This document shows, piece after piece, positions 53,046-55,047 of a DNA stretch of 64,000 bases. The notes under the pieces are model-generated. The model searched no databases. It was given only the letters and a program-made list of their open reading frames with translations, and was not told the DNA's origin. Both the position numbers and the translations under genes were made by a program. Position 1 is the first letter of the stretch. The number at the start of each line of letters is the position of its first letter. This DNA is from Clostridiales bacterium. GTDB taxonomy: Bacteria > Bacillota > Clostridia > Lachnospirales > WQUN01. The stretch covers positions 1-64,000 of the forward strand of contig JAITSQ010000031.1 in the NCBI GenBank assembly GCA_031287685.1. Reading direction: 5' to 3'.

Positions 53046-53600
53046 TCATTTTGGCGGGTTTTTCGCGGTTAAAAGGTCTATTTCCGTCGCTCTGTAGCGT
53101 TTTGTCTTTATAAGGTGGAAGCCCAAGCTCACGTGTAGGGGAGGTTCCGGCATTTTCTCGCGCTTGACGACCATAATCCCCGAAAGGAGCCGCTTTTCGG
53201 CGATTATTTCGAGAAAAGGCAGCAGAAGCCCGGAATTATAGGGCGGGTCGGCGAAAATGACGTCAAACGGCTCAAAGTCGTTCCGTTCCAAAAAACGGGG
53301 CAGCTCCGACGTGAAGAGGCGGGCTTGAGCCGTCAGGCCCGTATTTTCAAGGTTTTTCTCTAAGAAAAACGAAGCCTCGCGCGATTTTTCGATAAAAACC
53401 GCGCTTTTCGCCCCGCGGGACAGCGCCTCAATGCCGAAAGCGCCCGTGCCGGCGAAAGCGTCTAAAACCAAAGCCCCCGCCACACGCTCCGCAATCATCG
53501 AAAAAACGGCTTCCTTGACCATATCGGAGACAGGGCGCGTGGCCAGCCCCCTTGGAGCCGCGAGTTTCCGCCCTTTGCAAAGCCCGGAGGCGACACGCAT
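53046..53600 (-). CDS. rsmD: 16S rRNA (guanine(966)-N2)-methyltransferase RsmD
   Basis: A 184-residue SAM-dependent methyltransferase. It begins MRVASGLCKGRKL, has the SAM loop DAFAGTGAFGIEALSRGA and the catalytic DPPY in FADPPYNSG. First gene of the rsmD-coaD-coiled coil-pyr unit, with a promoter just upstream (53636-53664). A strong ribosome site (GGAAGGGG) precedes the ATG. Confidence 0.95.
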   Translation of the reverse strand: MRVASGLCKGRKLAAPRGLATRPVSDMVKEAVFSMIAERVAGALVLDAFAGTGAFGIEALSRGAKSAVFIEKSREASFFLEKNLENTGLTAQARLFTSELPRFLERNDFEPFDVIFADPPYNSGLLLPFLEIIAEKRLLSGIMVVKREKMPEPPLHVSLGFHLIKTKRYRATEIDLLTAKNPPK

Positions 53601-53683: not shown

Positions 53684-54709
53684 TCACCATTCCACGCCCA
53701 TTCGCGCCGATACCCCTTGCTCGAAAGGATGCTTGACCGCCGCGAACTCCGTAGCGTAATCCGCCAAAGCCAGATATTTACTTTCGGCGCCCCGCCCCGT
53801 GAGCACCAATTCAAGCCTCCCGGGCTTTTCAAAAATTATTTTATCCGTGAGCGCGGGGTCAATCGCGCCGGCGGCAAGAGCCGGGAAAATTTCGTCGAGC
53901 ACCAGAAAATCACAGGAATCGGCGCGGAGCCTCCTTAAAATTTCTTTGGCGCGGTCGTTATGTTCGGAAATAATTTCTATTTTCTCCTGCTTCTCGGCTG
54001 AAAAAAAGAAGGGCCGGCGCGTCTCTCCTGATAAAACAGATATGTTATATACGTTTTCTAAAGCAAAAAATTCCCCGCTGTCCGTCGATTTTAGGAAATT
54101 GGCGAAGAGCACACGACGCCCGCGCCCGGCCGCCCGCGCGGACAGCCCCACGGCGGCCGTCGTCTTGCCTTTTCCGTCTCCGGTGTATACGTGCACAAGT
54201 CCGCGCCCGGCCCCGGCGACGAACCGCCAGAGGCGCTCCCGGTCCTCCGGCGCGGCGTAATCTATGCCGATTCGCGGCGAAACGGAGTAGGGGGGCTGCT
54301 CACCGTCCTCAAGCCAAATTTCTTCGGAATCCAAGAAAACCGCGCCGTTCAGTCCGCGGTCGATTGAAAGCTCCTTGGTCAGCCGCCCCGGCCCGGGCGC
54401 GCCCGCCACGCCGCGAATAAGCACGGCCTGCGGGTTGCCGGAGCCGCCGGCGACGATGTTGAGCATGTTGTGAAGCCCGTAGCACAGATAGACGTAGGCC
54501 CGTCCGCCTTCCTCGTACATCACGGCGTTTCGCGGGGTTTTTCCGCGCGACGCGTGACAGGCCGTGTCAGCCTCGCCGAAATAGGCCTCAGTCTCGGTTA
54601 TCGCTCGGCGAAGGACGCCCCTCTCAACGCGGCGGCACAGGATTTTGCCTAAAAGCAACGGAGCCAGCGCAACCGCGTCCTTAATAAAAAAATCTTTTTG
54701 AAGCCTCAT
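53684..54709 (-). CDS. Fusion: 3-methyladenine DNA glycosylase + corrinoid adenosyltransferase (CobO)
   Basis: A single 341-residue reading frame with two full domains. Residues 1-168 are an AAG/Mpg-type base-excision glycosylase: the catalytic Glu lies in TETEAYFGEADTACHAS, then GKTPRNAVMY, the YVYLCYGLHNMLNIV strand pair, and GNPQAVLIRG. Residues 170-341 are an ATP:corrinoid adenosyltransferase of the CobO/CobA class: Walker A GLVHVYTGDGKGKTT, then the Walker B-like FLVLDEIFPAL and LVLTGRGAESKYL near the end. There is no stop or long linker between them (...LWRFVAGAGRGLVHVY). One domain repairs alkylated DNA; the other makes adenosylcobalamin-type cofactors. The ribosome site is weak. I know of no functional link. 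Confidence 0.85.
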   Translation of the reverse strand: MRLQKDFFIKDAVALAPLLLGKILCRRVERGVLRRAITETEAYFGEADTACHASRGKTPRNAVMYEEGGRAYVYLCYGLHNMLNIVAGGSGNPQAVLIRGVAGAPGPGRLTKELSIDRGLNGAVFLDSEEIWLEDGEQPPYSVSPRIGIDYAAPEDRERLWRFVAGAGRGLVHVYTGDGKGKTTAAVGLSARAAGRGRRVLFANFLKSTDSGEFFALENVYNISVLSGETRRPFFFSAEKQEKIEIISEHNDRAKEILRRLRADSCDFLVLDEIFPALAAGAIDPALTDKIIFEKPGRLELVLTGRGAESKYLALADYATEFAAVKHPFEQGVSARMGVEW

Positions 54710-54722
54710 AAAATCACGCTCG

Positions 54723-54763
54723 TTAAGAAAGGCGCCCGGTAGCTCCGGACGCCTTTCCTTGAT
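54723..54763 (-). terminator. Imperfect hairpin after cspA
   Basis: Minus strand GAAAGGCGTCCGG ... CCGGGCGCCTTTC, an imperfect stem of about 12 bp with an AGCTA loop. It lies 80 bases past cspA and before the fusion gene; the T-run is short, so terminator activity is likely but not certain. Confidence 0.55.
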
Positions 54764-54843: not shown

Positions 54844-55047
54844 TCAAACCAGAGGGGTCACGTTAGACGCTTGAGGACCTTTGTTGCCCTGTACAATCTC
54901 AAACTCCACGCGCTGACCTTCTTCAAGCGTTTTAAAGCCGTCGGTCTGGATAGCGGAGAAGTGTACAAACACATCGTCCTCGCCCTGAGCGGAAATAAAA
55001 CCGTAACCTTTTTCCGCGTTGAACCATTTTACAGTACCTGTTTTCAT
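54844..55047 (-). CDS. cspA: Cold shock protein (CspA/CspB family)
   Basis: A 67-residue OB-fold RNA chaperone. RNP1 (KGYGFIS) and RNP2 (VFVHFSAI) motifs are intact. It opens [19 protein letters not shown] and ends SNVTPLV. A strong TAGGAGGA ribosome site and its own promoter (55101-55129) with a short leader indicate high expression. Confidence 0.97.

Follow-up and report, generated by a model that had tools for sequence, protein, structure and literature searches.

The closest described systems to the gene analysed here are two separate enzymes, the DNA glycosylases of the Mpg/AAG family (PF02245; human AAG, PDB 1ewn and 3uby) and the ATP:corrinoid adenosyltransferases of the CobA/CobO/BtuR family (PF02572; Salmonella CobA, 1g64 and 4hut). 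Mpg-type enzymes remove hypoxanthine, and AdoCbl is required by class II ribonucleotide reductase. A literature search for Mpg together with CobO gave no paper mentioning both families. The pairing of the two domains in one protein therefore appears to be undescribed, and it is made of two known families.

In the window (the whole 64,000-nucleotide stretch of DNA that was analysed) both enzymes are encoded by a single unbroken open reading frame of 341 amino acids, which runs on the minus strand from an ATG at 54709 to a stop at 53684 (54709→53684). The glycosylase comes first (approximately residues 1-165) and is followed by the CobO-type adenosyltransferase (residues 170-341). The initial annotation had placed the gene correctly at 53684-54709 but without stating the strand, and its description of one frame joining a complete AAG/Mpg glycosylase to a complete CobO with no linker agrees with Pfam, with the PDB alignment and with the structural models. 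Both domains are complete and retain the catalytic motifs of their families. On sequence grounds, 341 in-frame codons with two full-length domain matches are far above what chance would give, and the same frame was found again as the genome's own copy when the source genome was searched. The features of the locus, and of the other fusions considered below, are collected in Table 1.

Table 1. The fused gene with its parts and neighbours in the window, and other fusions of Mpg or CobO (L, G and g labels are our own handles).
Feature	Position	Strand	Basis or remark
Fused Mpg/AAG-type DNA glycosylase and CobO-type ATP:corrinoid adenosyltransferase, 341 aa	53684..54709	-	ORF list, translation, Pfam, NCBIfam
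Glycosylase domain, residues 1-165	54215..54709	-	Pfam PF02245, PDB alignment, 11 relatives, model
Junction AGAGR, about residues 165-169	54203..54217	-	Other two frames open; ends of stand-alone relatives
CobO domain, residues 170-341	53687..54202	-	Pfam PF02572, alignment with 22 other CobOs, model
Cold-shock protein (CspA-like), upstream neighbour	54844..55047	-	ORF list
RsmD-like 16S rRNA methyltransferase, downstream neighbour, then coaD	53046..53600	-	ORF list; named by inspection
TadA-Mpg fusions	L008:1492-2595 (-), L096:2527-3501, L099:2458-3501, L188 (G857:C134), L189 (G932:C28)		One frame each; TadA domain in L188 and L189 named by eye from sequence, not by profile
Mpg-GNAT acetyltransferase fusion	L110:2336-3349		338-codon frame; Kiritimatiellae MAG contig JAFPUX010000363.1
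CobK-like-CobO fusion	L181 (G489:C6)		CobK-like partner named by eye, not by profile
Hydrolase-like-CobO fusion	L179 (G439:C145)		Alpha/beta-hydrolase-like partner named by eye
CobO with N-terminal region of ~200 aa	L010, L045, L054		Recurs in one genus (g22)

The N-terminal half matches the whole of the Pur_DNA_glyco domain (PF02245; E 6e-47, 159.7 bits against a cut-off of 27). It also passes TIGR00567 (161.8 bits against 116.4) and falls below the NF00200x equivalog cut-offs for mpg. The catalytic Glu reported in the initial annotation was confirmed as E41, which in the PDB-chain alignment lies opposite the Gln of the E125Q protein in 1ewn, and so takes the place of AAG E125. In the same alignment E41, Y43, H52, N84 and R99 correspond to E125, Y127, H136, N169 and R182 of human AAG, a numbering that was checked against the alignment. 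All 49 columns that are invariant among 11 relatives are retained, these five residues included. The two halves were modelled separately by AlphaFold, with glycosylase-only or CobO-only alignments, and each folded with good confidence when given the alignment of its own family. In the glycosylase model pLDDT was mostly above 80 across residues 1-165, with a few blocks lower, and the best Foldseek matches of this predicted structure were all human AAG, with E down to 9e-13. The half therefore shares with human AAG the whole domain, all the catalytic-site residues and, in the model, the fold, but it is the short bacterial form (~165 aa) and has CobO joined to its C-terminus. Stand-alone glycosylase relatives stop a few residues beyond a WRF motif, which in the fused protein is W161-R162-F163.

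The C-terminal half matches PF02572 (CobA_CobO_BtuR) over residues 169-341, covering positions 2-172 of the 172 in the profile (E 2e-47, 162.4 bits against 25.7). Its score of 121.7 bits with TIGR00708, the cobA equivalog, is under the cut-off of 167.75; membership of the family is thus clear from the sequence, while exact cobA equivalence is not certified by TIGR00708. The P-loop of the initial annotation is indeed present (GDGKGKTT, 177-184), and is accompanied by LDE (271-273), TGR (304-306) and the tail KHPF..G..AR.G.E. Among 29 positions invariant in 22 other CobOs, 27 are kept, the exceptions being Q204N and I339V. Top Foldseek matches of the predicted structure were Salmonella CobA 1g64 and 4hut, and also 1g5r. 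Compared with Salmonella CobA, the fused CobO has the same domain, P-loop, LDE, TGR, C-terminal motif and modelled fold, but it has no N-terminal extension of its own, the glycosylase being in that place, and it carries Q204N. Stand-alone CobOs start just ahead of GLxHxYTG, the first G of which corresponds to G170 in the fused protein.

The cold-shock gene and the rsmD-coaD pair flank the fused gene and are on the same strand. A promoter scan gave promoter-like sites at 55129-55101, upstream of the cold-shock gene, and at 53664-53636, ahead of rsmD. A strong G+C-rich hairpin with only a short T tail (54720-54760) separates the cold-shock gene from the fused gene, and may be the terminator of the former.

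The search with the fused protein covered 38 genomes of its family, 392 of the order, 391 of the class and 398 of the phylum, together with 61 relatives, altogether 1,147 distinct genomes including the source genome. The initial annotation had suggested looking for the same two-domain architecture in related genomes; among the best matches listed, about 150 to a table, it was found in none of the 1,146 other genomes, and the source genome alone matched across both domains (1 of 1,147). A match spanning both would stand first in such a list. Some CobO matches lay in long frames (G1121, G439, G108, G489, G663, G569, G692, G870, G197 and G422), and a scan of these with the glycosylase profile found no Mpg, so that a second case hidden there was rejected. 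Scans of public genomes, which sampled at least 80 Mpg loci with flanks of up to 3 kb, and of viral contigs, with 2 loci, gave 82 retained Mpg loci, and cobO was absent from all of them (80 and 2, respectively). The plasmid collection had no record in which one place covered 80% of the query, and a contig scan with the whole fused protein as query gave no match. With no donor found among the genomes, plasmids and viral contigs searched, horizontal import of a ready-made fusion was rejected. A conserved Mpg-CobO family would show the architecture in more than one species; across the 1,147 genomes and the loci retained from the public collections it did not extend beyond the source genome.

In the stretches of the relatives that were examined, mpg and cobO lie apart, have unlike neighbours and never occur together, and no conserved neighbourhood ties one to the other. 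Adjacent mpg and cobO genes, the arrangement expected of a direct ancestor, were not seen in any relative. The orthologues are split in every relative outside the source genome, an outcome that the initial annotation had named as one that would refute it. This disposes of the idea of a conserved system, but it leaves the reality of the gene in the source genome untouched. The trees place the two halves independently and among different relatives: the CobO half is joined, with weak support, to one genome of the same family and one distant genome, while the glycosylase half has no firm placement and five relatives from its own family cluster separately. A short-type Mpg that is 55% identical is present on a contig classed as viral (IMG/VR UViG_3300031555_003909) and clusters in the tree with Clostridia copies; this copy could belong to the host or be carried by a phage.

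Each of the two families was found joined to other partners. In at least five genomes, three of which are species of one genus, a TadA-like deaminase is followed by a short Mpg. These proteins resemble the fused gene in having the same short Mpg family set end-to-end with an unrelated single-domain enzyme, but differ in that the partner is N-terminal and in that the fusion is common to three genomes of one genus and so is inherited there. Since TadA makes inosine and Mpg enzymes excise hypoxanthine, the TadA-Mpg pairing may be functional. In one genome a GNAT acetyltransferase is located at the C-terminus of Mpg. CobO is likewise the C-terminal half of the CobK-like and hydrolase-like fusions; the CobK-like partner shares the pathway of the cobalamin adenosyltransferase, whereas the Mpg partner of the fused gene does not. 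The N-terminal region of ~200 aa found on some CobOs gave no clear Pfam family in L010, the one copy scanned. Mpg and CobO are both compact, and their termini accommodate partners, the choice of which looks loose.

The source genome (97% complete) contains neither a second Mpg nor a second CobO besides the fused gene. Stand-alone cobO and mpg, which the initial annotation had thought worth seeking elsewhere in the genome, gave no match there, and extra copies of either enzyme were rejected on that ground. No PduO-type adenosyltransferase was found in the genome either. A class II, AdoCbl-dependent ribonucleotide reductase is encoded, with a score above the NrdJ cut-off, as is a MetH-like methionine synthase. 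Since NrdJ is present and needs AdoCbl, and any other adenosyltransferase is absent, the cell probably requires the CobO half to be functional, and loss of its activity would be costly. The sole cobalamin riboswitch match in the genome (G000:C22:28033-28269) precedes a protein of 1029 aa (L086:4316-7405) with S-layer homology domains and one DUF4430 domain. Because DUF4430 is similar to the C-terminal domain of transcobalamin/intrinsic factor, the protein may bind corrinoids at the cell surface.

We consider it likely that the gene is a lineage-specific in-frame fusion that yields a bifunctional protein in which neither activity depends on the other, and that no conserved link between repair and B12 lies behind it. 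In this reading mpg and cobO would have been joined in frame through loss of the mpg stop and of the cobO start. Both halves are probably active, and their activities most likely run independently on one chain. The N-terminal half would excise alkylated or deaminated purines from DNA in base excision repair, and the C-terminal half would adenosylate cob(I)amide using ATP, the AdoCbl probably being delivered to the class II ribonucleotide reductase. A chance fusion is favoured because there is one case in 1,147 genomes, because the two genes are apart in the relatives, and because Mpg and CobO are fused in various ways elsewhere.

Since the source genome is a draft in 37 contigs, it might be asked whether two separate loci were joined by assembly or binning. 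The uniqueness of the architecture to one genome and the unequal G+C of the halves (62.7% in the glycosylase, 55.4% in CobO) would fit such an artefact, but the neighbouring genes range from 52.6 to 59.5% so that neither half strays far from them, each half is single copy and offers no repeat to cause a misjoin, and the joint keeps the reading frame and coincides precisely with the borders of both domains. These borders are only about 5 residues apart, and the junction between them has no stop and no ATG. Furthermore, neither alternative frame is interrupted there, and one inserted or deleted base would therefore not bring back the stop and start of two ordinary genes. A single-base sequencing error at the junction is ruled out for the same reason, and an artefact of joining seems to us very unlikely. 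We therefore take the fused gene to be real in this assembly. It is most improbable that free CobO is also made beside the fused form: an in-frame GTG codon does occur where the CobO domain begins (V172, in GLVHVY), but no clear ribosome-binding site is seen by eye, and starting at V172 would remove a couple of residues from the usual CobO N-terminus.

It could also be supposed that only one activity has been retained and that the other half is a decaying passenger. CobO departs from its relatives at two positions that are invariant among them (Q204N and I339V), which points this way, as does its fairly long branch in the tree (0.77 against a median of 0.36), and Q204N together with this branch could reflect a weakened activity. 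Such decay is nevertheless very unlikely, since the P-loop, Walker B, TGR and C-terminal motif of CobO are intact, there are no stops or frameshifts, the glycosylase retains every invariant position, and NrdJ with no other adenosyltransferase implies a need for CobO. Also very unlikely, in our view, is the proposal that corrinoid adenosylation and purine excision are tied together physically and functionally. It is possible to imagine that AdoCbl is made beside ribonucleotide reductase or at repair sites, co-locating dNTP supply and repair, or that the CobO part senses ATP or corrinoid and gates the glycosylase. In favour of a coupling, the class II ribonucleotide reductase of this organism does connect B12 with DNA metabolism, and both halves look active from their sequences and have no separate copies in the genome. 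However, the single occurrence, the absence of a neighbourhood linking mpg with cobO in the relatives, the joining of Mpg to TadA and GNAT and of CobO to CobK-like and hydrolase-like domains, and the silence of the literature on the two families together all argue against it, and a fusion seen once, to an unrelated enzyme, says little for a shared function. Between the readings proposed in the initial annotation, the chance fusion of neighbours thus fits better, and the coupling of repair to cobalamin draws on nothing beyond the fusion itself.

The TadA-Mpg fusions deserve more attention than the fusion of Mpg with CobO, given that inosine is the product of TadA and hypoxanthine the base that Mpg enzymes remove. 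The fused gene is a caution against inferring a shared pathway from a fusion, and its cautionary value is that two intact, single-copy and apparently needed enzymes are joined here with no conserved linkage between them.
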